64,000 nucleotides of DNA from Clostridiaceae bacterium (GTDB taxonomy: Bacteria; Bacillota; Clostridia; Peptostreptococcales; Tindalliaceae). This document shows, one piece after another, positions 2,971-20,003 of this stretch. Position 1 is the first letter of the stretch. Each line of letters begins with the position of its first letter. The stretch is taken from contig JAABSW010000009.1 of assembly GCA_011390155.1 (NCBI GenBank), positions 1-64,000 on the forward strand. The letters run 5' to 3'. The notes beneath the pieces were generated by a model. That model did no database searches. It saw only the letters and a program-made list of their open reading frames with translations, and had not been told where the DNA came from. Made by a program: the position numbers and the translations under genes.

Positions 2971-3100
2971 AATTGTGTGTCCTCCTTACTAGTACGATGT
3001 TCATTGGGTATGAATCATCAAACTTATCTTGATGTGAATGTCCCTTCAGATATGCCTATGCTATAATGAACTAAATGCCTGTTATGATTGGGGTGAAATC

Positions 3101-4957
3101 ATGGCGTCCAAGATCATGTTGATAGCACCGAATGAAGAAATCTACAAAATAGGTATGCAAGTGATCCAGGAAGAACAGTTACCTGCAGACGCACTCATCG
3201 GAAATCTATCTGTTGGTGCTCAACTTGCCAAAGCTTCGGTTGAAGAAGGCTATGAAGTTCTCGTCAGCCGTGGTGGCACTTATTTAGAGATTGTGAACAC
3301 CATTAAACGAGTGCCTTGTGTGCCCATCTACGTTACCACCATTGACTTGATGGAAGCAATGAAGAAAGCGGTGGTTTACAGCAAACGTATTGGCGTTGTT
3401 GGTTATGCCAATACCATCTACGAAGCTTCGTCATTGGGAGATTACCTGCACTATGATGTGGTGGAGATATCTGTTAAGGACCCTGCTCTATTAAAGGAGA
3501 GGTTAAAAACAGAGGCGTTACATGGTCTGAAAGTAATAGTAGGGGACACGATTTCTGTAAAAACTGCCAGGGAAATAGGGTTGAAGGGGATTTTGATAGA
3601 ATCTGGGAAACGCGCAGTTTATGAAGCGCTGATTCGCGCAATGGATCTATCGAGAATCCGCATGAAAGATGCACTGGAGCAAGGCAGACTGATTACCATA
3701 TTGAACTCAGTGGATGAAGGAATCATCGCCACTGACCATGAAGGAACCGTAACACATATAAACCCTGTAGCACTACAGATATTTGATTTTACCGCAAGTG
3801 ATATTATTGGAAACCGTATTCAGGAGTACCTTCCTGATGACAGGGTTAAAGAGGAAATCGTCAACATATCAAACAAACAGTATTTATATAATGCACAACA
3901 GATTGTCTATGAAGGAAGTTATGAAGCCGGCCATGTGATTACCCTTAAGGCTCTCAAAAGTATTCAGGATACAGAGACAAAGGTTAGAAAGAAGCTTCAT
4001 AAAAGCGGCCTCATTGCAAAAAAAGCCATCAAGGATATTTTAGGTGACAGCAGCGCCATAAAAAAAGTAAAAGAGGAAATTATTAAGATAAGTGATTCCA
4101 ATGCCACAGTACTTATTCAAGGGCGGACAGGTGTTGGAAAAGAAATGATCGCCCAGAGCATTCATAACTTGAGTCCACGACGGGAGGGGCCCTTTGTTGG
4201 TGTAAACTGCGCTGCTTTTTCTGAGAGCCTTTTGGAAAGTGAACTCTTTGGCTATGTTGAAGGCAGTTTTACAGACGCCAGAAAAGGTGGAAAAGAGGGC
4301 TTGTTCGAATTGGCTCACAGGGGCACCATATTTCTGGATGAAATCAGTGAAATGAGTTTATCCGTTCAGGCAAAAGTGCTTCGAGTGATGCAGGAACGGG
4401 AAGTTATGAGGCTTGGGGACAACAGAATCATGCCTGTTGATATCCGCATACTTGTTGCAACCAATGAAAGTTTGTGGGATGCGGTGGGGAAAAAGTTATT
4501 CCGGGAAGATTTATATTATCGGGTGAATGTGCTGGGTTTAGAAGTGCCCGACCTGGCACAAAGAAAATCAGATATACCGCTGCTGGCGGAACATTATCTT
4601 AGAAAAAATGCATCATTTCTTCACATTGAACCAGGTTGCTTTGAACCTTTAAAGCGTTTTCACTGGCCTGGTAATGTGAGGCAGTTAAACAATTTTGTGG
4701 AACAGCTGATTGTGTTTACGACGAACAATGAAATAACCATGAGAGATGTTCAAAAACGACTTGATAAGCTCATGCAACAACACAACACCTCTTTATCAGG
4801 GTTGGTTCATCCGAAAAAAAGAATAACGGACAAAATCATAGAAGAAACCCTGGTAAATTTCAATGGTAACCAAACAGCTGCGGCTGAAGCCTTGGGCATT
4901 GACCGTTCTACATTATACCGGCGGCTGAAGAAAATGGAGACGAAAAGCAACAAATAA
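3101..4957 (+). CDS. Sigma-54-dependent transcriptional activator, PrpR family
   Basis: This enhancer-binding protein probably switches on the acid-sugar operon that follows. I chose the ATG at 3101 (GGGGTGA site upstream; begins MASKIMLIAPNEEI) over the upstream in-frame ATG at 3038. Domains in order are PrpR_N ligand-sensing (about 1-170), PAS (about 195-290, SVDEGIIATDHEGTVTHINP), AAA+ (about 310-545) and a Fis-type helix-turn-helix (about 575-618, NQTAAAEALGIDRSTLYRRL). Walker A is GRTGVGKE and Walker B is GTIFLDEIS. The sigma-54 contact loop reads GSFTDA rather than GAFTGA. PrpR_N domains are thought to bind small organic acids, which fits an inducer made from the operon's substrate. A TATAAT element lies at 3062-3067. 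Confidence 0.93.
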   Translation: MASKIMLIAPNEEIYKIGMQVIQEEQLPADALIGNLSVGAQLAKASVEEGYEVLVSRGGTYLEIVNTIKRVPCVPIYVTTIDLMEAMKKAVVYSKRIGVVGYANTIYEASSLGDYLHYDVVEISVKDPALLKERLKTEALHGLKVIVGDTISVKTAREIGLKGILIESGKRAVYEALIRAMDLSRIRMKDALEQGRLITILNSVDEGIIATDHEGTVTHINPVALQIFDFTASDIIGNRIQEYLPDDRVKEEIVNISNKQYLYNAQQIVYEGSYEAGHVITLKALKSIQDTETKVRKKLHKSGLIAKKAIKDILGDSSAIKKVKEEIIKISDSNATVLIQGRTGVGKEMIAQSIHNLSPRREGPFVGVNCAAFSESLLESELFGYVEGSFTDARKGGKEGLFELAHRGTIFLDEISEMSLSVQAKVLRVMQEREVMRLGDNRIMPVDIRILVATNESLWDAVGKKLFREDLYYRVNVLGLEVPDLAQRKSDIPLLAEHYLRKNASFLHIEPGCFEPLKRFHWPGNVRQLNNFVEQLIVFTTNNEITMRDVQKRLDKLMQQHNTSLSGLVHPKKRITDKIIEETLVNFNGNQTAAAEALGIDRSTLYRRLKKMETKSNK

Positions 4958-4980
4958 TCGATGCACACATAACAAGAAGA

Positions 4981-5020
4981 TGCAATGTTGCAAATGCAAT
5001 GTTGCATTTTTTTATGCAAC
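4981..5020 (+). promoter_or_regulatory. Tandem operator palindromes (upstream activator sites)
   Basis: TGCAATGTTGCA occurs twice, at 4981-4992 and 4995-5006, exactly 14 bases apart, followed by a half-site TGCAAC at 5015-5020. Each is a TGCAA-N2-TTGCA inverted repeat, and they lie about 80-105 bases upstream of the -24/-12 promoter, the normal place for binding of a sigma-54 activator. The second copy runs into TTTTTTT, so the same DNA may also end transcription of the activator gene. Binding by the neighbouring PrpR-type protein is inferred. Confidence 0.75.
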
Positions 5021-5085
5021 AATCCGGAATATTGACAAAATTCAGACAATGTGGCCGCATCAACGCTTTCCTCTTAAACGTATTG

Positions 5086-5103
5086 TTGGCATGTAAGTTG
5101 CAT
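5086..5103 (+). promoter_or_regulatory. Sigma-54 (-24/-12) promoter of the acid-sugar operon
   Basis: TTGGCATG-N4-TTGCAT matches the sigma-54 consensus TTGGCACG-N4-TTGCW, with the invariant GG and GC at the right spacing. It lies 42-59 bases before the start of the kinase gene and just downstream of the activator sites. Confidence 0.88.
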
Positions 5104-5144
5104 TATATATAAAAAAGAATTTGGGATGGGAGGAGGGATGTGAA

Positions 5145-6431
5145 GTGTGTGTGGCCATTATTGGTGACGATTTAAGTGGATCCAGTGACACAGCGGTATC
5201 ATTCATCCATTATGGATTTAGAAGTTGCGTTATTAATTACCCGGAAGGTTTTGAGGCAGAAATTAGTGATTGCGATGTTTTATCTGTATCCACTAACACA
5301 AGGGAACTTGATGGACCAGAAGCTGCAAAAATCGTACGCGAGGTCGTGGTTGTTCTTATGAAAATGGGTGTGAAGAACGTATATAAAAAAATTGATTCCA
5401 CGTGGCGTGGCAACGTTGGTTACGAAATTGAAGCCATTATGGAAGCCATGGACATCGATATCGCAGTGATCTGTTCTGCTTTTCCTGAAATGAAGCGTAC
5501 CATAAGTCATGGACACCTCTATGTCGACGAAGTGCAACTTGAAGATACACCAATAGCCGATGATCCAAACAGGCCTGTGAAAGATTCCTTTCTGCCAAGA
5601 TTATTACAGGAACAAACAGACCTGCAGGTGCACTTAATAGACAGGGAAGTTGTTACAAAGGGACCGGAAATTTTGTATGATACCATACTGAACGTCTCCA
5701 ATAATAAAAAAACCATGATACTGGTGGATGCAGTGACAAACGATGACCTTGATACAGTGGCCTCCATCAATCCGCACAATAGTGAGAAGATACTTTTTTG
5801 TGGATCAGCAGGCATGTCCAATGCCATGCTTTCAGCGGGTAAGTTTGCAACTGCCTCAAAAGCGCCTCCGGTCTTAGTGATTGTAGGAAGTGTACATCCG
5901 CAAAACAAAAAAATGATCGATCACACTGTAAAGTACGGAAGTGCCAAAGAAATTTTTATTGATCCTCAGCGATTCGTTGAAGGAATGGACCTAAGTGATG
6001 AGATTAAAAAAACGATTGACCTCATGCGACAGGGAAATAACGTGATCATCCATGCCTATCAAACTACAGAGGAAAGAAAAGTGGCTCGTGTCAAGGGATT
6101 TAGTAAAGGCTTGAACGAATCAGATATTTCACTCCTTATTAACAAAGGGCTGCAGAAAATCGCAGGTGAGGTTTTTAAAGACCATCAAGTGGCAGGGGTT
6201 ATGGTAACCGGTGGTTCAACCGCCTTACATTTTTTGAGAGGTGTTCAGGGTGCCGGTATTCGTATGATTGAAGAACTGGAAGTGGGTGTGCCCTACGGTA
6301 CTGTAATCGGAGGACCTCTCGATGGCACTGGTATTATTACAAAAGCGGGAGGTTTTGGCACTGAAACGGTTATGATCAAAGGAATTAAGTTACTTCAGTG
6401 GAAATATTTGTCAGGGAGGAATCGCCAATGA
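5145..6431 (+). CDS. Four-carbon acid sugar kinase family protein (DUF1537)
   Basis: An ATP-dependent kinase predicted to phosphorylate the terminal hydroxyl of a C4 acid sugar such as threonate or erythronate. The track begins at TTG 5121, but GTG at 5145 has an ideal GGAGGAGG site 8-9 bases upstream and gives VCVAIIGDDLSGSSDTA, matching the family's opening motif (ADDLTGAxDT). Further family marks are KKIDSTWRGNVG near residue 83 and the C-terminal ATP-binding part VTGGSTA with GGPLDGTGIITKAGGFG near 350-415. The length of about 428 residues is normal. It is the first gene after the sigma-54 promoter and is followed at once by a PdxA2-like gene, the pairing known from D-threonate catabolism (DtnK/PdxA2). 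Confidence 0.9.
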   Translation: MCVAIIGDDLSGSSDTAVSFIHYGFRSCVINYPEGFEAEISDCDVLSVSTNTRELDGPEAAKIVREVVVVLMKMGVKNVYKKIDSTWRGNVGYEIEAIMEAMDIDIAVICSAFPEMKRTISHGHLYVDEVQLEDTPIADDPNRPVKDSFLPRLLQEQTDLQVHLIDREVVTKGPEILYDTILNVSNNKKTMILVDAVTNDDLDTVASINPHNSEKILFCGSAGMSNAMLSAGKFATASKAPPVLVIVGSVHPQNKKMIDHTVKYGSAKEIFIDPQRFVEGMDLSDEIKKTIDLMRQGNNVIIHAYQTTEERKVARVKGFSKGLNESDISLLINKGLQKIAGEVFKDHQVAGVMVTGGSTALHFLRGVQGAGIRMIEELEVGVPYGTVIGGPLDGTGIITKAGGFGTETVMIKGIKLLQWKYLSGRNRQ

Positions 6432-7447
6432 AAAACAGACCAATTTTGGCAATTACCATGGGTGATCCATGTGGAATAGGCGCGGAAATAGCAGTTAAAG
6501 CCCTTTCGGAAAAAAGCATGTATGAAGAAGCGCGACCATTGATCATTGGGGATAAAGAAAGAATAAGACAAAGCCTTGCATTTGTGGATATACCATTGAA
6601 AATTAATGTGGTCACAACACCTGATGACGCTGTCTATGAACATGGCACGTTGGATGTTCTCCACATGGAAGTGCCCGGCGTTTCTGAACTGGGTTATGGT
6701 AAAGTCAATGCCCTGGCAGGTGAAGCTGCGGTTACTTATATCTTCAAATCCATCGATTTGGCAAAGGAAAGGCAAGTTGATGCCGTGGTCACGGGACCCA
6801 TCAACAAAGAGTCAATGCACATGGCAGGCCATCATTATCCTGGTCATACAGAAATCTTTGCACAGCGAACAGACACAAAAGATTATGCCATGATGTTGTC
6901 AGCAGAGGGTTATTTTGTCATTCATGTCAGCACACACTGTTCACTCCGGGAAGCCTGTGACCGGGCAAAAAAAGAGCGGGTCAAAAAGGTGATTCAACTG
7001 GCCTACGAATTAGTGACAGTCAATGATATGCCCAACAAAAACATCGGGATCGCAGGGCTTAACCCCCACAGCGGTGAGAATGGGGCTTTTGGAACAGAAG
7101 AGGTGGACGAAATTATTCCGGCAATGGAAGAATCCAGGCAAGAAATCCCTGGTATTCAACTCATAGGACCAGTACCGCCAGACAGCTTATTTGTCAAAGC
7201 GAAGCGTAATGATTATCGGGTGATGGCGGTGATGTACCATGACCAGGGGCATATACCCATGAAAATCATCAATTTTGACGAAGGGGTTAATGTCACACTG
7301 GGACTGCCCATCATAAGAACATCTGTTGACCATGGAACAGCTTTTGGAAAAGCTGGCAAAGGCACAGCTTCCGCCAAAAGTTTACATGCAGCCATAGCGT
7401 TAGGAATTGAAATGGCCTTGAATAAATTTTACAAGAAGGAGGTGTAG
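6428..7447 (+). CDS. pdxA2: PdxA2-like 4-phospho-threonate/erythronate 3-dehydrogenase
   Basis: A PdxA-family NAD-dependent oxidative decarboxylase. Because it follows a DUF1537 kinase, it is better read as PdxA2, which turns 4-phospho-threonate or -erythronate into dihydroxyacetone phosphate and CO2, than as the vitamin B6 enzyme PdxA. The ATG at 6428 has a GGGAGGAA site and overlaps the kinase stop by 4 bases; the track's 6398 start is upstream of that. Motifs are ITMGDPCGIGAEIA at the N-terminus and the metal-binding histidines in GHTEIF, NPHSGENG and YHDQGHIPMK. The length, 339 residues, is standard for the family. Confidence 0.9.
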   Translation: MKNRPILAITMGDPCGIGAEIAVKALSEKSMYEEARPLIIGDKERIRQSLAFVDIPLKINVVTTPDDAVYEHGTLDVLHMEVPGVSELGYGKVNALAGEAAVTYIFKSIDLAKERQVDAVVTGPINKESMHMAGHHYPGHTEIFAQRTDTKDYAMMLSAEGYFVIHVSTHCSLREACDRAKKERVKKVIQLAYELVTVNDMPNKNIGIAGLNPHSGENGAFGTEEVDEIIPAMEESRQEIPGIQLIGPVPPDSLFVKAKRNDYRVMAVMYHDQGHIPMKIINFDEGVNVTLGLPIIRTSVDHGTAFGKAGKGTASAKSLHAAIALGIEMALNKFYKKEV

Positions 7448-7503
7448 ATTAGATTAATCCGTTATTTATTTGGAAAACAACAGAAACAAAGGAGGAGAGC
7501 TTC

Positions 7504-8571
7504 ATGAATTTAAGAAAATGGATGGTTTTGATTCTGGCATTGGTAATGGTACTATCGGTAGCGGCATGTTCGCCTCAAGAGGAAGCACCGGCAGAAGAGC
7601 CTGAAACACCGGCAGAAGAACCGGCAGAAGAACCAGCAGAAGAACCAGCAGAGCCAGCAGAAGATTACAGCAGCTATCCTGAAAAACCCATCGTTGTCTT
7701 TCAGGGATTTGCCCCCGGTGGCGGAAGTGATGCATTAGCTCAGTTAACACAACCATTTTTAGGAGAAATTTTGGACATTACCTTTGTTAATCAATACATT
7801 CCTGGGGCAACGGGTGCAATCGCCTGGACACAACTGGCGAAATCAACAGACCCAGATGGCTACACCATCAGTATTACCAATACACCAATGTTGCAAACAA
7901 ACTACATTATGAATGAAGACATTACCTATAACATTACAGAACTGACACCAATTGCCAATGTTGTAACTGACCCAGGTTTAATCGTTGTTGGTGCAGACAG
8001 CCCCTTCGAAACCATTGAAGATTTAATGGCAGCAGCAGAAGCAGATCCTGAAGGCATAACAGTGGGTAACTCAGGGGTTGGCGGAGATGATTTCTTCTCC
8101 ACGTTGATCTTCCAAATGGAAACTGGACTGAAATTTATCCTGGTTCCCTTTGAAGGTGACGGACCATCCTGGCAGGCAGCGGCTGGCGGCCAGATTGACG
8201 CATCCTTTAATAACCTGGGCATCACCTTCCCGCAAATTGAAGCTGGCACACTGAGACCGTTGGCCATCTTTGCCGAGGAAAGAGACCCCAACATACCAGA
8301 CATCCCCACCATGAAAGAATTAGGCTATGATATAGTTAACGGATCATCACGGGGCTACAGTGCACCGGCTGGGCTTCCGCAGCCAATACTCGATGAACTG
8401 ATTGCCGCCTTTGAAGAAATGGGAAATGACCCTGAATTCTTGCAGGCAGCAGCAGATCGTGCATTGCCTGTCGACATCAAAACCGGTGATGAATATGCAG
8501 AGTATCTGAGAGGTCACGAAGATATCTTTGGCCAAATCTGGGAAGAAGTTAAGAGCGAATACACACAATAA
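7504..8571 (+). CDS. tctC: TctC-type tripartite tricarboxylate transporter substrate-binding lipoprotein
   Basis: The extracytoplasmic solute receptor of a TTT transporter, capturing a carboxylate for TctAB. It has a signal peptide with lipobox SVAAC at residues 19-23, so the mature protein is lipid-anchored. A repetitive acidic linker of PAEEP units follows (about 24-55), then the Bug/TctC fold starting YPEKPIVVFQGFAPGGGSD, with GVGGDD and FEGDGPSWQAAAGGQID typical of the carboxylate-binding loops. The total is 355 residues. The ribosome binding site is AGGAGGAG. The ligand is presumably the acid sugar degraded by the operon. A stable hairpin lies between this gene and tctB. Confidence 0.93.
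   Translation: MNLRKWMVLILALVMVLSVAACSPQEEAPAEEPETPAEEPAEEPAEEPAEPAEDYSSYPEKPIVVFQGFAPGGGSDALAQLTQPFLGEILDITFVNQYIPGATGAIAWTQLAKSTDPDGYTISITNTPMLQTNYIMNEDITYNITELTPIANVVTDPGLIVVGADSPFETIEDLMAAAEADPEGITVGNSGVGGDDFFSTLIFQMETGLKFILVPFEGDGPSWQAAAGGQIDASFNNLGITFPQIEAGTLRPLAIFAEERDPNIPDIPTMKELGYDIVNGSSRGYSAPAGLPQPILDELIAAFEEMGNDPEFLQAAADRALPVDIKTGDEYAEYLRGHEDIFGQIWEEVKSEYTQ
7584..7665 (+). repeat. In-gene GCAGAAGAACCG/A repeat coding the PAEE linker
   Basis: About six imperfect copies of a 12-base unit (GCAGAAGAACCG or GCAGAAGAACCA) encode a proline-alanine-glutamate tether between the lipobox and the binding domain of TctC. It is a spacer and probably varies in length between strains. Confidence 0.75.
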
Positions 8572-8578
8572 ACCATTT

Positions 8579-8610
8579 CAGCAGGGTAGGGATCAATCTC
8601 TACCCTGCTG
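8579..8610 (+). other. Intergenic hairpin between tctC and tctB
   Basis: CAGCAGGGTAG (8579-8589) and CTACCCTGCTG (8600-8610) form a perfect 11-base-pair stem with a 10-base loop. No T-run follows, so it is not a plain terminator. Stem-loops after binding-protein genes often protect the upstream message and allow more receptor than permease to be made; that role is inferred. Confidence 0.7.
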
Positions 8611-8653
8611 TTACAAGGCCTGATGGCCGAGAAAGGTTCAGGAGGTTCGTCCC

Positions 8654-9124
8654 ATGACAAACACTGTAAAAGTTGGCATTGCATCGATCGTGGCCATCAT
8701 TTTTTCAGCGGTCTTATACCTGGAGACATTAACAATGTCCCGTGCCGCTTACCAACTTCCAAGGATCCTCATTGTGATCATCATTCTACTGGCCATGGCA
8801 ATGTTTGCAGAGGAATACTACAAATCAAAGAAAAAGAAGAGCCAAGGTACTGAGGAGGCTGTTGTAAAACAACCAGAGGATAAATACGACAAAATTCATT
8901 ATGACCGGATTGCCGTTTTTGTGGGTGCCATCACGGTCTACATTTTCAGTATCAAGATTCTGGGGTATTTCATCGTTACCCCCCTCTTCATTATTGGTAT
9001 TTTCAGGTACCTAAAATCGGTTAAAATGACAACGGCCCTCATTATTGCTGTTGGATTTACTGGTTTTATATACATGCTGTTTATCAGATTTCTTCATTTA
9101 CCCATTCCCATTACCATGTTTTAA
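8654..9124 (+). CDS. tctB: TctB family small permease subunit
   Basis: The 156-residue integral membrane protein is the small subunit of the tripartite tricarboxylate transporter. About four hydrophobic segments are visible: two near residues 7-25 and 33-50, then a charged cytoplasmic loop rich in Lys/Glu, then two near 90-110 and 120-150. The sequence is weakly conserved in this family, so the call depends on length, membrane pattern and position between tctC and tctA. The ribosome binding site is CAGGAGG. The overlapping frame at 8623 is a shadow. Confidence 0.85.
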   Translation: MTNTVKVGIASIVAIIFSAVLYLETLTMSRAAYQLPRILIVIIILLAMAMFAEEYYKSKKKKSQGTEEAVVKQPEDKYDKIHYDRIAVFVGAITVYIFSIKILGYFIVTPLFIIGIFRYLKSVKMTTALIIAVGFTGFIYMLFIRFLHLPIPITMF

Positions 9125-9143
9125 GGAGGTGAAATAGAAACCC

Positions 9144-10640
9144 ATGGAATATTTAATGCTTGGATTAAACAACGTAATGACATTCATGAACCTTGCTGCC
9201 ATTGTTGTAGGTACTGCATTAGGCCTTTTTGTTGGTGCAATGCCTGGTTTGTCAGCAACCATGGCCATCGCCATATTGCTGCCACTGACATTTTCTTTGC
9301 CAACTGCCACGGGTATCAGCATGTTGGCCTCCTTGTATTTGGGAGCCATGTATGGTGGTTCAATCGCAGCGATTCTCATTAGAACCCCAGGAACACCTGC
9401 AGCAGCAGCGACGGTGCTCGATGGGTACCCAATGGCACAACAGGGAAGAGCCGGAAAGGCGTTGGGTGTTTCTCTATTCGCTTCCCTTGTTGGCGGCGTG
9501 ATTAGCTCCATTGCTTTATTGACAGTGGCCCCTGTTTTGGGAAGTGTGGCGCTGAAGTTTGGCCCTGTGCAATTGTTTGCCGTAGCGGTGCTGGGCATTA
9601 CCATTATCGGTTCACTTTCACAGGGTTCCACCATCAAAGGCTTATTATCCGGGGTTTTGGGATTACTGCTGGCACTGGTGGGCATGGACCCGGTCACAGG
9701 AAGTGCACGTTTTACCTTTGGCATGATTAACCTGTATTCGGGGATTTCCTTTACGGTTGCTTTAATTGGTCTTTTCTCAATTCCACAGGCCATCAGACTC
9801 ATTGAGAAAGATCAAAAAGTGATTACACAAGTAAACAAATTCAAAGACAGAATGTTACCAACCATGAAAGAAATTAAACAGATCATAGTCACCGTTATTC
9901 GCGGTAGTATTATCGGGATCTTTACGGGGATTATTCCTGGAACAGGTGGAGATACGGCCTGTTGGTTCAGTTACAATGAGGCAAAACGATTTTCCAAAAA
10001 CAAAGCCAACTTTGGTAAAGGGGCCATTGAAGGGGTGGCAGCTGCTGAATCTGCCAATAACGCAGTTGTTGGAGGCGCTTTAATTCCAACATTAACCCTG
10101 GGCATTCCTGGAAGTTCAGCCACTGCGGTGCTGATGGGATCATTAATGGTGCATGGCATTATGCCGGGGCCCACACTCATGACAGAATATGCAGATGTTA
10201 CCTACACGCTGATTTGGGCTTTACTTCTTGCCAATGTCGCCCTGTTCTTTGTTGGGTTGTTATTTACTCGATTGGCTGTAAATGTCGTTAAAATTCCCAA
10301 TCATGTACTGGCGCCGATTATTGTCATTTTATGTGTCATTGGTTCCTTTGCCATTAACAATAGCTTCTTTGAAGTTTATTTAATGCTCATCTTTGGTTTG
10401 CTGGGTTACTTGATGGACAAAATCGGCATGCCCACTGCGCCCATGGTGGTTGGACTTATTTTAGGGTTTATGCTGAACATGAGCCTGTACCAGTCGTTGT
10501 TAATTGGAAGAGGCAGCTGGATGATTTTTCTCCAAAACCCCATTTCAGCAATCCTGCTTCTTGTAGCATTGTTTTCAGTTATCCAATCAACCCCGTTGTT
10601 TGGATGGATAAAGAAAAAAATCGTTGCAAGTAAAATCTAA
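9144..10640 (+). CDS. tctA: TctA family large permease subunit
   Basis: The large channel-forming subunit of the TTT transporter, 498 residues with about 11-12 membrane segments. Family signatures are GAMPGLSATMAIAILLPLTF near residue 32, LYLGAMYGGSIAAILIRTPGTPAAAAT near 65-90, and the second half-repeat GIIPGTGGDTACWFSYNEAKR near 265 with GGALIPTLTLGIPGSSATAVLMG near 310. These glycine/proline loops are thought to line the transport path. It is preceded by TAAGGAGGTGAAA. With tctC and tctB it forms a complete importer inside the acid-sugar operon. Confidence 0.96.
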   Translation: MEYLMLGLNNVMTFMNLAAIVVGTALGLFVGAMPGLSATMAIAILLPLTFSLPTATGISMLASLYLGAMYGGSIAAILIRTPGTPAAAATVLDGYPMAQQGRAGKALGVSLFASLVGGVISSIALLTVAPVLGSVALKFGPVQLFAVAVLGITIIGSLSQGSTIKGLLSGVLGLLLALVGMDPVTGSARFTFGMINLYSGISFTVALIGLFSIPQAIRLIEKDQKVITQVNKFKDRMLPTMKEIKQIIVTVIRGSIIGIFTGIIPGTGGDTACWFSYNEAKRFSKNKANFGKGAIEGVAAAESANNAVVGGALIPTLTLGIPGSSATAVLMGSLMVHGIMPGPTLMTEYADVTYTLIWALLLANVALFFVGLLFTRLAVNVVKIPNHVLAPIIVILCVIGSFAINNSFFEVYLMLIFGLLGYLMDKIGMPTAPMVVGLILGFMLNMSLYQSLLIGRGSWMIFLQNPISAILLLVALFSVIQSTPLFGWIKKKIVASKI

Positions 10641-10659
10641 TATAATAAAAGAAAGTTAG

Positions 10660-11754
10660 GTGACAATGATGGAAATGATGAAAGGTTTAGTGGCGTACCC
10701 CGATGGCCATTTGGCTCTGGAAGAAGTGCCAGTACCAAAACTGGGTGATAATCCCTATGCACCAAATGATGTACTGGTGGAGGTTCAATACTGCGGGATC
10801 TGTGGCAGTGACGTTCATAAGTGGAAATCTGACAAAAAAGATGTACAGACTGCACCTAAAAAGAATGTGGCGGGCCATGAAATCGTCAGCGTGGTGAAAG
10901 AAGTGGGCCCTGCTGTTACCAAAGTAAAACCCGGTGACCGGGTAGTACATGAAATTGTTACTTTTTACTGTGGCCATTGCCCCAACTGTCTGGAAGGCAG
11001 GTTCAATATCTGCAACACATTACCACCCATGGAAGGCAGAGCCCACTTTATGACAGGTGGGGGTTTTGCCAAATACACCGTGTGGCCGGAACAACAACTG
11101 CATGTTTTGCCTGACAATATCACTGACCGGGAAGCAGTGCTCATTGAGCCAACGGCAGGTTCAGTGCACAGCATTATTACAAGAATGGGGATCAAGGCAG
11201 GTGAATCGGTGGCAATTCTGGGCCCTGGAGCTCGTGGTATTCTTATGGCCCAGGTATGCCAGGCAATAGGCGCCGGCCCCATTTTCATGAGCGGCCTTGA
11301 ACGGGACAGTAGTTACAGATTGGAAATGGCCAAAAAATTGGGAACGGATACTGTGATTAACGTGGATAAAGAGGACATTCGAAAAATCATAGCAGAGAAG
11401 ACCAATGGTGTCGGCGTTGACAATGTGCTGGAAAACACGGGTTCTGTAGAACCCATTGCTGAGTCTCTGGACATTGTGCGTAAAGGCGGCAAGGTGCTTT
11501 GGGCCGGCGGAGGCATACGCGGTGGCATTCATGCGCCTGTTGACACACATAAAATAATCGTAAAAGAAATCACCATTTATGGTGAGATATCACAGATCCC
11601 TTATGACTGGAAAACAGCGATTCATCTTGTGAAAAAAGGAGCAGTACAGTTAAAGCCCCTGGTAACCCACGTGTATGACCTGGAAAACTGGGAAGACGGG
11701 TTTGACCTGGCTGCCACAAGTGCAGAATGCATGAGAGTGGCAATCAAACCGTAA
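10660..11754 (+). CDS. Zinc-dependent medium-chain alcohol dehydrogenase
   Basis: An NAD(P)-dependent dehydrogenase of the sorbitol/threonine dehydrogenase type, likely oxidising a secondary hydroxyl of the operon's substrate. Catalytic zinc ligands are seen in YCGICGSDVHK (Cys near 40) and GHEIVSVVKEVG (His-Glu near 70). The structural zinc site is the four-cysteine cluster in CGHCPNCLEGRFNIC (about 105-120). The cofactor loop is GPGARG near 190. The start is unsure: GTG 10660 is the track's choice, while ATG 10666 or 10675 are possible. The ribosome binding site is weak (TTAGGTGA) compared with its neighbours, hinting at coupling to or lower translation than tctA. Confidence 0.9.
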   Translation: MTMMEMMKGLVAYPDGHLALEEVPVPKLGDNPYAPNDVLVEVQYCGICGSDVHKWKSDKKDVQTAPKKNVAGHEIVSVVKEVGPAVTKVKPGDRVVHEIVTFYCGHCPNCLEGRFNICNTLPPMEGRAHFMTGGGFAKYTVWPEQQLHVLPDNITDREAVLIEPTAGSVHSIITRMGIKAGESVAILGPGARGILMAQVCQAIGAGPIFMSGLERDSSYRLEMAKKLGTDTVINVDKEDIRKIIAEKTNGVGVDNVLENTGSVEPIAESLDIVRKGGKVLWAGGGIRGGIHAPVDTHKIIVKEITIYGEISQIPYDWKTAIHLVKKGAVQLKPLVTHVYDLENWEDGFDLAATSAECMRVAIKP

Positions 11755-11784
11755 GAAAGATCAGTGCAGTAAGGAGGAATTGGT

Positions 11785-13053
11785 ATGAGTTCCATCGATC
11801 TTTTACTTGATCCAATACCGATTCCACGGATGGTAAAAGTGGAACAAACTTTCACAAGGCCAAAAGTGGATGATGTTGAAGTGGAACTGGCACATAAAAT
11901 GAACCTGAGACAGGTGACATCAGGCATTACGCCAGGCATGAAAATAGCGGTTGCAGTGGGAAGCAGAGGCGTCAGCCAGCTTCCCCTGATGGTGAAAACC
12001 ATCATTAGGCTTATTAAGGATGCGGGAGGAGAACCCTTCATCCTTCCCTGCATGGGAAGTCATGGGGGTGCCACCGCAGAGGGCCAGCGGGACATGCTCA
12101 TTGGCATGGGCATCGAAGAAGCGTATGTGGGTGCACCCATCCGTGCCACCATGGAAACAGTGGTGGTAGGCACTTCAGTAAATGGGTTGCCTGCCAACAT
12201 TGACAAATATGCCTACGAAGCTGACGGCATTGTGATCATTAACCGGATTAAACCCCATGTTGCCTTTCGAGGCCCATTTGAAAGCGGGTTAATGAAGATG
12301 GTGACCATTGGTCTGGGAAAACAGAAGGGTGCAGATATTTGTCACGAGCTGGGGTTTGGTAAAATGGCAGAAAATATTCCTGCCATTGGCCGAGTCACCA
12401 TAGAAAAAACCAACATACTCTTTGCTGTGGGTGTTCTGGAAAATGCTTACCATGAAGTATGTCAGGTGGACGTACTGATGAAAGAAGAAATAGAAACCCA
12501 TGAACCCGCGTTGCAGGAAAAAGCCAAAGAATTGGCCCCCAGGCTGTATTTTGATCAACTGGATGTGCTGATCATTGATGAAATTGGTAAGGACATCAGC
12601 GGTACAGGTTTTGATACCAACATGGTGGGGCGCTATCACACACCCTACGCCAGTGGCGGACCCAGCATTACCAAAATGGCTGTGCTGGACATAACCGATA
12701 AGTCCCATGGCAATGGTAACGGGCTGGGAATCCTGGATTTTACTACAAAAAGAGCCTATGATAAATTCGTTTTCGAGATGACTTATCCAAATTCCCTGAC
12801 ATCCACGGTGCCCATGAGTGTAAAAATACCCATGGTGCTTAAGAATGACCGTCAGGCCATACAGGCAGCCATTAAAACATGCAACATACTTGATAAAACA
12901 CAAGTCAGAATGGCCCGGATTAAAAACACTGTGGCAGTGGCTGAAATTCAGGTGTCTGAAAACCTGCTAAGGGAAGTGGAAAAATGTGAATATATGAACG
13001 CCGTCAGTGATCCTAACCACTGGGTGTTTGATGAGGATGGTAATCTGTTGTAG
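11785..13053 (+). CDS. LarA-like nickel-pincer racemase/epimerase (DUF2088)
   Basis: A 422-residue protein of the lactate racemase N-terminal-domain family. LarA and its homologues use a nickel pincer nucleotide to invert the alpha-hydroxyl of 2-hydroxy acids. Motifs are PCMGSHGGATAEGQ near residue 90, where the histidine fits a catalytic position, and INRIKPHVAFRGPFESGLMKM near 155-175 with conserved His and Lys. In an acid-sugar operon it would be expected to epimerise C2 of the substrate. The cofactor makers larB, larC and larE are not in the window. The substrate is not lactate by context, but this is inference. Ribosome binding site AAGGAGG. Confidence 0.8.
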   Translation: MSSIDLLLDPIPIPRMVKVEQTFTRPKVDDVEVELAHKMNLRQVTSGITPGMKIAVAVGSRGVSQLPLMVKTIIRLIKDAGGEPFILPCMGSHGGATAEGQRDMLIGMGIEEAYVGAPIRATMETVVVGTSVNGLPANIDKYAYEADGIVIINRIKPHVAFRGPFESGLMKMVTIGLGKQKGADICHELGFGKMAENIPAIGRVTIEKTNILFAVGVLENAYHEVCQVDVLMKEEIETHEPALQEKAKELAPRLYFDQLDVLIIDEIGKDISGTGFDTNMVGRYHTPYASGGPSITKMAVLDITDKSHGNGNGLGILDFTTKRAYDKFVFEMTYPNSLTSTVPMSVKIPMVLKNDRQAIQAAIKTCNILDKTQVRMARIKNTVAVAEIQVSENLLREVEKCEYMNAVSDPNHWVFDEDGNLL

Positions 13054-13076
13054 CGGGATAAGAAGGAGTTGAGTTT

Positions 13077-14741
13077 GTGGGCAAGGGTGAGAATATACGT
13101 AGTCATGCGGTAACGGAAGGTAGTGACCGTGCAGCCAGTCGGGCACTGTTTTTTGCCACCGGATTAACACGCAGTCAATTGGATCAGCCCCTGGTGGCAG
13201 TGGTCAATTGTTGGAACGAAGTGGTACCGGGATGCGTTCCGCAACGCCAGGTAGCTGAATATGTTAAAAAAGGTATTCGGGAAGCTGGCGGAACAGCCAT
13301 GGAGTTCAACACCATTGGGGTGTGTGACGGAATCGCCCAGGGACACGAAGGCATGAAATACTCCCTGCCCAGCAGGGAAATCATTGCTTACTCCATCGAA
13401 ATCATGCTCCAGGCCCATCAATTTGATGCAGCTGTCTTTCTTTCCAGCTGCGATAAAATAACCCCAGGAATGCTAATGGCGGCAGCCCGGGTGAACATTC
13501 CCTCCATTTTTGTGCCGCCCGGTATTATGCATGCCGGCGAACATAAAGGACAAAAATTGACATTATCCCTTATGCGAGAGTTCATCGGAAAACAACAGTC
13601 AGGTCAGATGACCCTGGAAGAACTGCACGAAATTGAAGAGAAGGCCTGTCCCTCAGTGGGCAGTTGTGCCATGATGGGTACTGCCAATACCATGAACTGT
13701 CTTTGTGAGGTTTTGGGCATGGCAATGCCACTCACAGCTACATCCTTTGCCGGTTCCAGGGAAAAGTTGATGGAGGGTGAAGTGGCTGGGAAAAAAATAA
13801 TGGAATTATTCAAGCATGATACCAAGCCCTCGGACATTATGAAATCCGCTTCCTTTGACAACGCCATCAAGTTTGTCATGGCCATTGGGGGGTCAACCAA
13901 TTCAGTGCTTCACATACCGGCCATTGCCAATGAGTTGGGCATAGAATTGAATCATGAAGCTTTTGACAAGTGTTCACACATTCCCTATGTGGCAAAGATC
14001 AACCCTTCCGGACCACGGCCAGTGGAAGATTTTCACGCAGCAGGAGGCGTGCCTGCAGTGCTCAAATCATTACAGGATTACCTTCATACAGACCTGGTCA
14101 CTGTATCGGGCAAAACCATTGGAGAAGTGGCAGACCAGGCTGTCTGGAGTGACCTGGAAATGATCAGGCCGGCACAAAAACCAATAGCAGTGGACAGTGC
14201 TTTAAGGGTTTTATGGGGGAATTTAGCTCCTGATGGAGCCATTGTAAAGAAATCTGCCGTTGCTGAAAACATGCAGGTGCATAAAGGCCCTGCGGTTGTG
14301 TTTGACAGCATGGAAAACGCCATTGAGGCGGTGAAGAAAAAGGAAATTGAACCTGGCTCTGTCATTGTCATACGATACGAAGGTCCCACAGGGGGGCCGG
14401 GCATGAGGGAAATGCAGGCGATCACTGCCATGCTAATGGGTACTGGCCTGGCGGAGAGCACTGCCCTGGTCACTGACGGCAGGTTTTCCGGTTCCACACG
14501 TGGCCCTTGCATCGGACATGTGTCTCCGGAAGCAGCCCTGGGTGGTCCCATTGGATTGGTGGAAAATGGCGATCTTATTGAAATCGATATTCCAGGTGGA
14601 AAACTGTCGGTTTTCATTTCCGATGAAGAAATCAAGAAACGAAAAGAGTCCTGGAAACCCCTCATAAAACATCATGGTGGCGTTTTGGGACTATATGAAA
14701 AGGTGAAGCCCCAGGCAAAAAACGGGGCTGTATGGGAATAA
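13077..14741 (+). CDS. IlvD/Edd family dehydratase
   Basis: An iron-sulfur dehydratase of the dihydroxy-acid / phosphogluconate dehydratase family, which removes water from a 2,3-dihydroxy acid to give a 2-keto-3-deoxy acid. The three cluster cysteines lie in VVNCWNEVVPGC (about residue 45), SSCDKITPG (about 125) and SVGSCAMMGTANTM (about 195). DGRFSGSTRGPCIGHVSPEA near 470 is the substrate and metal loop. It starts at GTG after GAAGGAG. The 554 residues match IlvD length. Its place between a LarA-like protein and UxaA subunits argues for an acid-sugar substrate rather than branched-chain amino acid synthesis. Confidence 0.88.
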   Translation: MGKGENIRSHAVTEGSDRAASRALFFATGLTRSQLDQPLVAVVNCWNEVVPGCVPQRQVAEYVKKGIREAGGTAMEFNTIGVCDGIAQGHEGMKYSLPSREIIAYSIEIMLQAHQFDAAVFLSSCDKITPGMLMAAARVNIPSIFVPPGIMHAGEHKGQKLTLSLMREFIGKQQSGQMTLEELHEIEEKACPSVGSCAMMGTANTMNCLCEVLGMAMPLTATSFAGSREKLMEGEVAGKKIMELFKHDTKPSDIMKSASFDNAIKFVMAIGGSTNSVLHIPAIANELGIELNHEAFDKCSHIPYVAKINPSGPRPVEDFHAAGGVPAVLKSLQDYLHTDLVTVSGKTIGEVADQAVWSDLEMIRPAQKPIAVDSALRVLWGNLAPDGAIVKKSAVAENMQVHKGPAVVFDSMENAIEAVKKKEIEPGSVIVIRYEGPTGGPGMREMQAITAMLMGTGLAESTALVTDGRFSGSTRGPCIGHVSPEAALGGPIGLVENGDLIEIDIPGGKLSVFISDEEIKKRKESWKPLIKHHGGVLGLYEKVKPQAKNGAVWE

Positions 14742-14756
14742 CAAGGAGGGCTGCGC

Positions 14757-15035
14757 ATGCCGACTGTTGACGCGATAGTGATCAGTGAAAAAGACAGTGT
14801 TGCCACGGCACTGAGGTCGATACAAACAGGAGAAAATATTCAATTGAAGGTGTCAGATAAAAGCTATGAGATTGTCATATTGACTGATATACCGATTTTC
14901 CATAAAGTGGCACTTCATGAAATCGGGCAAGGTGAGAAAATCTACAAATATGGTGAAGTCATTGGTGAAGCGGTTTCGCGAATAAAAGCAGGGGAACATG
15001 TCCATTCGCACAACACTGTTACCTTAAGGGGGTGA
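14757..15035 (+). CDS. UxaA-type dehydratase small subunit (SAF domain)
   Basis: A 92-residue protein made of one SAF domain, equal to the N-terminal domain of altronate dehydratase. The pattern PIFHKVALHEIGQGEKIYKYGEVIG followed by IKAGEHVHSHN is diagnostic; the histidines probably help bind the metal or substrate at the interface with the large subunit. It ends 4 bases before the next gene, which holds the rest of the enzyme, so the two probably form one complex. Ribosome binding site AAGGAGG. Confidence 0.88.
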   Translation: MPTVDAIVISEKDSVATALRSIQTGENIQLKVSDKSYEIVILTDIPIFHKVALHEIGQGEKIYKYGEVIGEAVSRIKAGEHVHSHNTVTLRG

Positions 15036-15039
15036 ACAC

Positions 15040-16197
15040 ATGACATTTATGGGCTATCAACGTTCTAATGGAACGGTGGGGATCAGAAATCACGTATTAA
15101 TTTTGCCAACAGTGTCGTGTTCAACAGAAACGGCCCGTATTATTGCCGGCCAGGTGAAAGGAGCTGTTACCTTTCAAAATCAACAGGGGTGCGGGCAAAT
15201 GGGTGCTGACGCCAAGCGTACCATTGATATATTGATTGCACTGGGAAGTCATCCAAACATCAGCGGCGTGGTTGTCGTAGGATTAGGTTGTGAAACAGCA
15301 CAGCCTCACAAAGTGGCTGAAGAAATCGCTAAAAGTGGAAAACCTGTAAAAACCACTGTGATTCAGGAAGAAGGCGGTACACTGGGGGCCATCACCAAAG
15401 GCATTCGATACGCAACAGAAATGGCGCTGGCGGCTTCCATGGAAGAAAAGGTGCCCTGCGACGTATCAGAATTAATCGTGGCATTGGAATGTGGAGGTTC
15501 TGACCCAACCTCCGGGGTAGCTTCCAACCCCAGCATGGGATATGCCAGTGATTTGCTGGTGGCAGCAGGTGGCACCACCATATTGAGTGAAACCACAGAA
15601 TTTATTGGTGCCGAACATGTGCTTGCAGCACGTGCGGCGGATGAAGAAGTGGCAAATGATATTATGAACATTGTTCACCGGCTTGAAAAATCTACCAAAG
15701 AGCGTGGAGAAGACTTGCGGGGAGGGAACCCGTCCCCTGGTAATATTGCAGGCGGTATCACAACCATTGAGGAAAAGTCCCTTGGGTGCATCAATAAAGG
15801 AGGGTCTTCCCCCGCAGTGGAAGTGGTGGAATATGGGGAAAAACCAAGGCGCAAAGGATTGGTGATCATGGATTCCCCGGGTTTTGACATTGATTCCATT
15901 GTTGGTATGGTAGCCGGCGGTGCACAAATGTGCGTCTTTACCACAGGACTTGGGACACCGGTTGGCAATGGATTGGTTCCCGTTATTAAACTGACGGGAA
16001 ATTCCATGACCTACGAAAAGATGAAGGATAACATTGACATCAACGCCGGCGTTATTTTGGATGGCGGTAAGACCGTGGAAGAAGTTGGCCAGGAAGTCTA
16101 TGATGAAATGCTGCGGGTTGCCAATGGTAAAACAACAAAAGCAGAAATATTTGGATTCAGCGAGTTTGGTGTTTGGCGCTGCGGAACCAGCGTTTGA
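15040..16197 (+). CDS. UxaA family dehydratase large subunit
   Basis: A 385-residue catalytic subunit of the altronate/galactarate dehydratase family, which dehydrates acid sugars to 2-keto-3-deoxy acids using iron. The opening GYQRSNGTVGIRN is the family signature. NQQGCGQMG near residue 50, GLGCETAQP near 90, ALECGGSDPTSGVASNP near 155 and the cysteine-rich loops fit the metal site. The sugar acid is not deducible; a C4 or C6 acid is possible. Translation is likely coupled to the SAF-domain gene just upstream (GGGGTGA overlapping its stop). Confidence 0.9.
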   Translation: MTFMGYQRSNGTVGIRNHVLILPTVSCSTETARIIAGQVKGAVTFQNQQGCGQMGADAKRTIDILIALGSHPNISGVVVVGLGCETAQPHKVAEEIAKSGKPVKTTVIQEEGGTLGAITKGIRYATEMALAASMEEKVPCDVSELIVALECGGSDPTSGVASNPSMGYASDLLVAAGGTTILSETTEFIGAEHVLAARAADEEVANDIMNIVHRLEKSTKERGEDLRGGNPSPGNIAGGITTIEEKSLGCINKGGSSPAVEVVEYGEKPRRKGLVIMDSPGFDIDSIVGMVAGGAQMCVFTTGLGTPVGNGLVPVIKLTGNSMTYEKMKDNIDINAGVILDGGKTVEEVGQEVYDEMLRVANGKTTKAEIFGFSEFGVWRCGTSV

Positions 16198-16224
16198 TGT
16201 AACATCGATATCTCCCCCTTTACA

Positions 16225-16267
16225 TGAACCGGACAATGGCCAGGATCAACGGCTGCTGTCCGGTTCA
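16225..16267 (+). other. Strong intergenic hairpin before the hydroxyacid dehydrogenase gene
   Basis: TGAACCGGACA (16225-16235) pairs perfectly with TGTCCGGTTCA (16257-16267), an 11-base-pair stem. There is no T-run after it, so it may act as a processing or stability element that uncouples the last gene of the operon from the others. It is followed by AAGAATCCTGTTATAT, a near match to the dispersed motif seen elsewhere. Confidence 0.65.
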
Positions 16268-16359
16268 GCAGTTAAGAATCCTGTTATATGGAGATTGGCA
16301 CATTACATGGGATTGTACTATCGCTAAGAGGAGCAATCAAAAAGAGAGGATGTGATTTT

Positions 16360-17349
16360 GTGGGAAAAATAAAAGTATTTGTCACAAGTCAATTTCCTGA
16401 AGAAGCAATGCAATTATTGGGCACGCACTATGACCTTGTGATGAAACCTCAAAATGAGCAACTGTCAAAAGAAGCATTAATTCAAAAAGCAGCAGGATGC
16501 AAAGCGATCCTCGTTTCTGGCACAAGAATCGATTCGGAAATATGTGAAGCCATTAAATCTCATTGCCAGATTATCACCTGTTCTGGAGTCGGTTATGACA
16601 ACGTGGATGTTGAGGCAGCGACACGCAGTGGAATTTTGGTAACGCATAACCCAAGGGTAGTCACCGATGCAACAGCTGACTTAACATGGGGACTGCTTAT
16701 GGCGGTTTCAAGACGGATTGTTGAGGGGGATGGCTTTGTACGCAGCGGAAACAAGCAGTGGGGTCCGAGTAATCTATTGGGAGTACAGGTAAGTGGAAAA
16801 ACCCTGGGAATCATTGGTGCCGGACGCATCGGTACAGCTGTTGCAAAGCGCGGGATAGGCTTTAATATGCGTATACTCTATACAGGAAGAACACCCAAGG
16901 AAGCGTTTGAAAAAGTAACAGAGGGTGCTTATGTCAGCAAAGAGGTCTTGTTTAGTGAGTCCGACTTCATCTCGGTTCACCTGCCTCTCAATGCATCAAC
17001 GCATCATTATGTTGGGGTTGAAGAACTGAACATGATGAAAAAACATGCTATCCTGATCAATACATCAAGAGGTCCTGTCATTGATGAAACTGCACTGATT
17101 TCTGCGTTGAAAAATCAATTAATAGGAGGAGCCGGACTTGATGTGTTTGAACACGAGCCAAATGTTAACATTGGGTTGGCTTCATTGGATAACGTGGTTA
17201 TGACTCCCCATATAGGCACTGCAACCCTTGAGACAAGAATAAGAATGGGAGAGCTGTGTGCGCAAAAAATAGGTGAGGCCCTGGAAGGACGCATTCCCAC
17301 TGATTGCCTTAACCCCACCGCATTGTCTAACCGTGTGTCCAGCATCTGA
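16360..17349 (+). CDS. D-2-hydroxyacid dehydrogenase (NAD-dependent)
   Basis: A member of the phosphoglycerate/glyoxylate-hydroxypyruvate reductase family that interconverts 2-keto acids and D-2-hydroxy acids. I chose GTG at 16360 (GAGAGGATG site; begins MGKIKVFVTSQ) rather than the ATG at 16288. The NAD loop is GIIGAGRIG near residue 150. The catalytic Arg is in INTSRGPVIDE near 230, the Glu in DVFEHEP near 262 and the His in TPHIGTATLETR near 283. At 329 residues it is of normal length. It closes the acid-sugar cluster and may reduce a keto acid made by the dehydratases. Confidence 0.9.
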   Translation: MGKIKVFVTSQFPEEAMQLLGTHYDLVMKPQNEQLSKEALIQKAAGCKAILVSGTRIDSEICEAIKSHCQIITCSGVGYDNVDVEAATRSGILVTHNPRVVTDATADLTWGLLMAVSRRIVEGDGFVRSGNKQWGPSNLLGVQVSGKTLGIIGAGRIGTAVAKRGIGFNMRILYTGRTPKEAFEKVTEGAYVSKEVLFSESDFISVHLPLNASTHHYVGVEELNMMKKHAILINTSRGPVIDETALISALKNQLIGGAGLDVFEHEPNVNIGLASLDNVVMTPHIGTATLETRIRMGELCAQKIGEALEGRIPTDCLNPTALSNRVSSI

Positions 17350-17655: not shown

Positions 17656-17790
17656 TGTGAGGCCAATGGTTGGATCAGAAAGGTAAAAATGGTTGGACAC
17701 ATCAGCTCCTTAATGTGATAAAAAGAAACTGGGTCTATAACCTGCCTTTAAAGAACGATTATTGCTATGCGAAAAAGGGGGAACCAACCA

Positions 17791-18915: not shown

Positions 18916-18926
18916 AGGTTAGAGAC

Positions 18927-18966
18927 TGCGGCAAATAAGGTCACACCGGTGACGCTGTTTGCCGCA
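18927..18966 (+). other. Intergenic hairpin between aminotransferase and cyclodeaminase-like genes
   Basis: TGCGGCAAA (18927-18935) pairs with TTTGCCGCA (18958-18966), and inside it GGTCAC and GTGAC extend the structure. No T-run follows. It may reduce read-through or stabilise the upstream message. Confidence 0.55.
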
Positions 18967-18992
18967 TAACTGTTTACGAGGAGGGTGTCATT

Positions 18993-19979: not shown

Positions 19980-20003
19980 TGAGTGGGAAATGGGAGATCA
20001 ATC

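Follow-up and report, generated by a model that had tools for sequence, protein, structure and literature searches.

A cluster of 12 plus-strand genes at 3038–17349 of the window, the term used here for the whole 64,000-nucleotide stretch analyzed (Clostridiaceae bacterium of the family Tindalliaceae, assembly GCA_011390155.1, contig JAABSW010000009.1, positions 1 to 64,000), is described as a putative acid-sugar operon. We propose, with a probability of roughly 0.45, that a single operon, activated through sigma-54, serves to import a hydroxylated carboxylic acid and to drain several of its stereoisomers, most likely those of the four-carbon (C4) tetronates. The proposal builds on directly observed features, namely the genes and their families, the gene order, the layout of promoter and binding site, the catalytic residues and the pairings that recur elsewhere. 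The features are as follows, with other loci and genomes cited by L and G numbers, respectively.

3038..4957, plus strand: sigma-54-dependent activator with PrpR_N, PAS, AAA and HTH_8 domains (Pfam Sigma54_activat 217 bits, PrpR_N 119 bits; 61% identity to the L005 counterpart)
4981..5021, plus strand: candidate activator-binding site from the sequence, TGCAATGTTGCA twice and then a TGTTGCA...TGCAACA inverted repeat (similar repeats at the corresponding position in L005 and L007)
5087..5102, plus strand: sigma-54 promoter-like site TGGCATGTAAGTTGCA (one mismatch to TGGCACN5TTGCW; counterparts in L005, L006 and L007)
5121..6431, plus strand: DUF1537 four-carbon acid-sugar kinase (SBD_N 197 bits, NBD_C 73 bits; related structures 4xfr and 4xg0)
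6398..7447, plus strand: PdxA2-type 4-phospho-2,3-hydroxyacid dehydrogenase (PdxA 330 bits)
7504..8571, plus strand: TctC solute-binding protein (Pfam TctC 145 bits)
8654..9124, plus strand: TctB (Pfam TctB 66 bits)
9144..10640, plus strand: TctA permease (Pfam TctA 529 bits)
10660..11754, plus strand: Zn-dependent alcohol dehydrogenase, adh (ADH_N, ADH_zinc_N; closest model L-threonine 3-dehydrogenase)
11785..13053, plus strand: LarA superfamily nickel-pincer-nucleotide isomerase, group 22 (NF052515, 531.5 bits)
13077..14741, plus strand: IlvD-type dehydratase (ILVD_EDD_N 415 bits; TIGR00110 682 bits)
14757..15035, plus strand: split UxaA, small SAF-domain subunit, UxaS (SAF 31 bits)
15040..16197, plus strand: split UxaA, large subunit, UxaL (GD_AH_C 330 bits)
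16288..17349, plus strand: D-2-hydroxyacid dehydrogenase of the glyoxylate/hydroxypyruvate reductase type (2-Hacid_dh_C 193 bits)

All genes named in the original prediction, made from the DNA letters, are present on the plus strand in the order it gave, although its start at 3101 has to be moved to 3038, where the activator reading frame begins. The gaps it had called short measure −34 to 90 bp from the kinase onward: kinase and PdxA2 overlap by 34 bp, and the successive downstream gaps are 56, 82, 19, 19, 30, 23, 15, 4 and 90 bp. This layout supports a predicted single operon from the kinase to the D-2-hydroxyacid dehydrogenase, after which 417 bp separate the last cluster gene from an aminotransferase gene. 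The G+C content of the cluster (45.6%) equals that of the window (45.5%).

Control by sigma-54, previously deduced from the activator gene alone, is now joined at the sequence level by a −24/−12 site before the kinase; no other site in the first 20 kb comes within one mismatch of TGGCACN5TTGCW. An array of TGCAA/TTGCA repeats accompanies the site upstream of the kinase. Since the sigma-54 pattern is not enriched in the window overall (41 matches against 47 expected), the promoter argument rests on position and conservation. The equivalent gap in L005 (Acidaminobacter hydrogenoformans DSM 2784) contains TTGGCACAAACCTTGCG with near-identical TTGCA/TGCAA repeats upstream, and L007 (Desulfosporosinus) has two sigma-54 sites, one preceding tctC and one separating larA from ilvD, both with TTGCA repeats on their upstream side. 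GTG 5145 is the probable start codon of the kinase; its ribosome-binding site, GGGAGGAGGG, is better, as judged by eye, than that of the listed TTG at 5121.

The LarA-like protein belongs to NPN isomerase group 22 (NCBIfam NF052515), scoring 531.5 bits against a cut-off of 400. Its two catalytic histidines, cofactor-binding lysine and nickel-binding histidine, assigned by motif as His93, His158, Lys171 and His187, are 96–100% conserved among 46 sequences. A PDB sequence search with this protein returned no match; its structural relatives came from a fold search with the AlphaFold model (mean predicted local distance difference test score 85), in which all 18 PDB matches at E<0.001 are LarA family members, with template modeling scores of 0.45–0.57. 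The model thus meets the expectation that group-22 proteins adopt the LarA fold, at 12–20% identity to solved LarA structures. The Acidaminobacter counterpart is 80% identical. Regarding substrates, PMC11770544 describes LarA homologues that epimerize 4-deoxy-threonates and 4-deoxy-erythronates, and D-gluconate; for group 22, the main texts of PMC7583248 and PMC11770544 give no activity.

LarC and LarE are a different matter, as neither was found above cut-off in the organism's own genome, which is 97% complete. Both are likewise absent from G012, G070, G328, G339 and G383, and the majority of the remaining group-22 genomes carry both; in all, LarA-family genes with neither LarC nor LarE were found in six genomes, the present one (G000) and these five. 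LarC and LarE are not part of the LarA family definition, so that their absence lowers functional confidence and leaves family membership untouched; an active nickel epimerase cannot be presumed. In G269, which belongs to the same family, a split LarC adjoins LarE within 3 kb, and a single assembly gap could therefore hide both in the present genome, an explanation that is less easy to apply generally, given six cases. Cofactor uptake is a conceivable supply route. The LarA-type epimerase of the original prediction is accordingly strengthened by family, fold, residues and a recurrent split UxaA neighbor, and weakened by the missing LarC and LarE.

The product of the IlvD-type gene passes the TIGR00110 equivalog cut-off (682 versus 618 bits), which places the dehydratase, earlier labeled IlvD/Edd, on the IlvD side. 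It forms a supported clade with the L005, L010 and L011 homologues (95/99 in the tree), separate from the genome's housekeeping-like IlvD on C38, whose pairing with E. coli IlvD is less well supported (83/86). The genome contains three ILVD/EDD genes and one KARI; with three such genes, and with the cluster copy in another clade, the cluster IlvD is unlikely to be the branched-chain enzyme of the genome. The split UxaA retains the SAF, GD_AH_second and GD_AH_C domains, distributed over two polypeptides, and Cys27, Cys51, Cys84 and Cys151 of UxaL are conserved when it is aligned with the E. coli proteins UxaA and GarD. UxaA/GarD enzymes typically prefer (2S,3R) acids, and ILVD/EDD sugar-acid enzymes (2R,3S) acids. 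AraD enzymes of the UxaA/GarD family dehydrate D-threonate in vitro (PMC10079672; family PMC6336799), L-threonate dehydratases are known, and a Sulfolobus IlvD accepts both stereopreferences (PMC10079672).

The route from D-threonate through kinase and PdxA2 stands at the level of families. The kinase carries both DUF1537 domains, SBD_N and NBD_C, and its best NCBIfam model is D-threonate kinase (NF047819), for which it reaches 250 bits and fails the equivalog cut-off of 450. PdxA2 lies above the TIGR00557 cut-off, scores 302 bits against NF002891 (cut-off 583), and has as its second-best PDB match 6e85, a D-threonate 4-phosphate dehydrogenase (5e-80). The two remaining dehydrogenases behave similarly: adh reaches 209 bits with the tdh model, under the cut-off of 458, and the D-2-hydroxyacid dehydrogenase scores 338 bits with its best NCBIfam model, glyoxylate reductase, under the cut-off of 455.

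To follow the gene order across other genomes, the LarA protein was used as a query against GTDB genomes, yielding 11 loci. The order in L005 is identical except that the last gene, the D-2-hydroxyacid dehydrogenase, is absent; no assignment of this order to a known substrate, which would have contradicted the earlier view of the cluster, was found. The tctC-tctB-tctA-adh-larA block also occurs in L006 and L010, and adh counterparts adjoining larA in L005, L006, L008 and L010 are 72–85% identical to the adh of the window cluster. L007 and L009 have larA together with ilvD and uxaSL, L011 has larA-ilvD-kinase-pdxA, and partial blocks are found in further contigs assigned to Bacillota and Spirochaeta. 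Group-22 LarA is present in 25 of 391 genomes of the class, in mostly different contexts, and a phylum-wide LarA search recovered relatives at 44–55% identity, again with mostly different neighbors; the full gene set is therefore rare.

Pairings within the set recur more widely. Among 34 split-UxaA loci of the class, scanned for neighbors within 10 kb, a DUF1537 kinase was present at six (about 0.16 expected under a simple Poisson model), the window's own kinase and UxaA going uncounted at just over 10 kb apart. Under the same model, group-22 LarA lies near split UxaA at 5/34 loci (about 0.09 expected) and near DUF1537 at 4/34 (about 0.24 expected), the latter in four genomes including the present one. 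These figures assume unrelated genomes; because the genomes are in fact related, the probabilities make the association look stronger than it is, though several families are involved. At no fewer than 17 of the 34 loci, split UxaA has a LarA gene of one group or another about 10 kb away or nearer, the second-group partners in this count being identified by BLAST only. The six kinase-bearing loci, from six other genomes (L113–L118), all have a sigma-54 activator, UxaS, UxaL, KdgT, DUF1537 kinase and PdxA2 in one row, with no UxaS hit in L118. The original prediction had described kinase/PdxA2 and dehydration as two branches; this recurring unit makes kinase/PdxA2 and split UxaA look like parts of one system.

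The L113–L118 row is itself a candidate for a general D-threonate operon that includes a dehydratase. In L114, PdxA2 is directly followed by a methyl-accepting chemotaxis protein (13062–14141) whose sensor domain is PrpR_N and which possibly mediates chemotaxis to the same acid. On the Sporomusa termitida plasmid pSPTER (L090 2983–10161), an enolase-superfamily protein, TctCBA, LarA, UxaS and UxaL stand in a row, the first being a candidate for an unrelated second dehydratase in the place of IlvD. A plasmid search for UxaL relatives additionally returned UxaA accompanied by KdgT and a sigma-54 regulator in E. albertii, and by DHDPS and a semialdehyde dehydrogenase in Priestia.

The fate of the dehydration product had been left unexplained for want of an aldolase. 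Neither the window cluster nor its close counterpart in Acidaminobacter contains an aldolase, yet two leads now exist. In relatives, a DHDPS-family protein adjoins larA/ilvD/uxaA in L007 (Pfam-confirmed) and L009, and larA/ilvD in L149. The second lead is a paralogous cluster on contig C94 of the same genome (L049 1643–17582), which comprises IclR, a group-22 LarA, UxaS, UxaL, a TRAP transporter, a LarAH10-type LarA, PanB, IlvD, PanB, GntR, EtfB, EtfA and GlcD. In G328, from another genus, the corresponding genes are IlvD, parts of an ABC transporter, LarA, PanB, ApbA, UxaS, UxaL, PanB and FTHFS. The PanB catalytic residues are intact, and the second PanB belongs to a distinct clade (16 matches at 73% identity or higher, followed by a drop to 58%), which elsewhere lies beside FTHFS, FTCD_C and FolD-family genes. 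To reverse 2-oxo acid hydroxymethylation, PanB needs a 4-hydroxy-2-oxo acid as substrate, and dehydration of any tetronate yields one; FTHFS beside PanB fits disposal of the one-carbon (C1) unit. Pantoate catabolism was considered for the C94 cluster; this role would account for PanB, and for ApbA in G328, but not for IlvD and UxaA. To our knowledge, the C1-yielding lyase reaction of PanB is known only from engineered strains.

Separate clusters in L110 (2226–12613) and L111 contain FTHFS, a FolD-family gene, PanB, ApbA, a TRAP transporter and IclR, followed in L110 by DUF997 and a sodium:solute symporter, and L108 (6656–11058) contains an isochorismatase-family protein, PanB, ApbA and DUF997-like and symporter-like genes. 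Their gene content suggests that pantothenate or pantoate is degraded there with PanB working in reverse.

From these elements we infer a C4 substrate and a stereochemical division of labor. TctCBA would bring in a hydroxylated carboxylic acid, most likely threonate and erythronate. In one branch, the DUF1537 kinase and PdxA2 would convert D-threonate to dihydroxyacetone phosphate and CO2. In the other, group-22 LarA would invert C2, interconverting erythronate and threonate within the D series and within the L series, while the IlvD-type enzyme (typically 2R,3S, as in L-threonate) and split UxaA (typically 2S,3R, as in D-threonate) would dehydrate both pools, converging on achiral 4-hydroxy-2-oxobutanoate. 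Such an inversion would explain why two dehydratases of mirror-image preference share one operon. In some relatives, 4-hydroxy-2-oxobutanoate may be split by a DHDPS-type aldolase; here, putative cross-talk with C94 would allow PanB to split it into pyruvate and methylene-tetrahydrofolate, or the D-2-hydroxyacid dehydrogenase might reduce it. Tetronates are favored because kinase/PdxA2 and PanB both indicate a C4 chain that ends in a hydroxymethyl group. The broader scheme, in which anaerobes degrade all four tetronates by group-22 LarA, mirror-image dehydratases and a catabolic PanB and gain ATP via formate-tetrahydrofolate ligase, seems unlikely as a whole.

Several observations weigh against a tetronate operon. 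In addition to the missing LarC and LarE, the kinase and both dehydrogenases score under substrate-specific curated cut-offs, PanB is absent from the window cluster, and the substrates of LarA homologues could often not be predicted from genomic context (PMC7583248). The closest UxaL relatives outside the cluster (L056 and L137, 61–62%) carry a DHDPS-family aldolase beside uxaL, L137 with an additional class-II aldolase and a sugar-isomerase-like gene, and the last gene of the L011 cluster encodes a homologue of galactarate dehydratase that shares 61% identity with GarD of E. coli and suggests C6 aldarates as substrates in that locus. Such findings, together with the DHDPS-family neighbors in L007, L009 and L149, suggest that relatives may use longer acids; characterized UxaA/GarD enzymes work on C5/C6 acids (PMC6336799). 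It is possible, though doubtful, that here too the dehydratase branch converts C5/C6 aldonates or aldarates to 2-keto-3-deoxy acids, which a DHDPS-type aldolase would cleave to pyruvate and an aldehyde, with kinase/PdxA2 serving a C4 acid of the same diet or pathway. The window and Acidaminobacter clusters contain no aldolase, nor do the six UxaA-KdgT-kinase-PdxA2 rows, and dehydratases of opposite stereopreference would turn longer acids into different products. Alternatively, a single sigma-54 promoter might serve two or more independent pathways, with kinase/PdxA2 acting on D-threonate and adh-larA-ilvD-uxaA on an unrelated hydroxyacid, as tctCBA-larA-ilvD without kinase/PdxA2 in L007 and L010 and the second sigma-54 site in L007 would allow. 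The short gaps and lone promoter-like site of the window cluster, the ties of split UxaA to kinase/PdxA2 in six other genomes, and the DUF1537 kinase near group-22 LarA in four make this distinctly improbable.

Two further alternatives concern single components. Lacking its cofactor, as the LarC and LarE results would imply, group-22 LarA may not be an active nickel-pincer epimerase in this host, leaving an operon of kinase and dehydratases only. We consider this unlikely, given that the cofactor and catalytic residues are all kept, that the protein is so similar in Acidaminobacter, and that either an assembly gap or cofactor uptake could account for the absence. The split UxaA was also compared with SuyAB sulfolactate sulfo-lyase, the characterized heteromeric member of the family (PMC6336799) whose clusters include sulfolactate dehydrogenases (PMC12421959); Tct would then import sulfolactate, and the dehydrogenases or LarA would racemize it. 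The four UxaL cysteines are conserved in UxaA/GarD sugar-acid dehydratases and reported absent from SuyAB (PMC6336799). As all four are kept, as split UxaA elsewhere stands in sugar-acid clusters with KdgT, kinase and PdxA2 or with DHDPS and semialdehyde dehydrogenase, and as IlvD, kinase and PdxA2 would have no role, this identity was rejected as highly improbable.

Beyond the 417-bp gap, the same strand of the window (17767–21482) encodes the aminotransferase, an ornithine cyclodeaminase/mu-crystallin family protein and a MocR-type regulator.

The proposed tetronate operon suggests how one transcription unit could consume every stereoisomer of a four-carbon acid, and the recurring parts in relatives offer concrete hypotheses for the substrates of the cluster and the fate of its dehydration product. 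No assigned reaction was found for this LarA group; the analysis proposes substrates for it and links it to split UxaA dehydratases in many genomes. The six LarA-bearing genomes with neither LarC nor LarE found raise the question of where the nickel cofactor comes from, and, if the PanB link is true, an enzyme of vitamin biosynthesis would act as a C1-yielding lyase when sugar acids are fermented.

In agreement with the original prediction, no described pathway with this gene set turned up in a full-text literature search of incomplete coverage. The component families are already known; what is new is their combination, the LarA–UxaA association and the PanB link. The nearest system is the D-threonate pathway (the DUF1537 kinase DtnK, PdxA2 and KdgT), which shares a kinase next to PdxA2, co-regulated with a transporter. 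KdgT imported D-threonate in E. coli (PMC10079672); the present cluster has TctCBA in its place, adds LarA, IlvD, split UxaA and two dehydrogenases, and encodes a kinase under the D-threonate kinase cut-off. The LarA protein resembles its superfamily in score, fold and the catalytic His/His and cofactor Lys/His residues, and differs from solved or known LarA in its low identity, in a group for which no assigned substrate was found, and in a genome where LarC and LarE were not found. GntE (D-gluconate 2-epimerase) clusters likewise use a LarA homologue to feed a sugar-acid pathway, whereas the cluster described here differs in its LarA group and in having a phosphorylating branch as well as two dehydratases. 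With UxaA/GarD dehydratases acting on D-altronate, galactarate or D-arabinonate, the split UxaA shares domain content and four cysteines, but it consists of two separate subunits and co-occurs with DUF1537/PdxA2 and LarA. Finally, the synthetic 2,4-dihydroxybutyrate pathway (PMC10079672) also dehydrates threonate to 4-hydroxy-2-oxobutanoate and reduces this to a hydroxyacid; that pathway was engineered in E. coli, whereas the present cluster is natural, known from its genes, and has a putative substrate.

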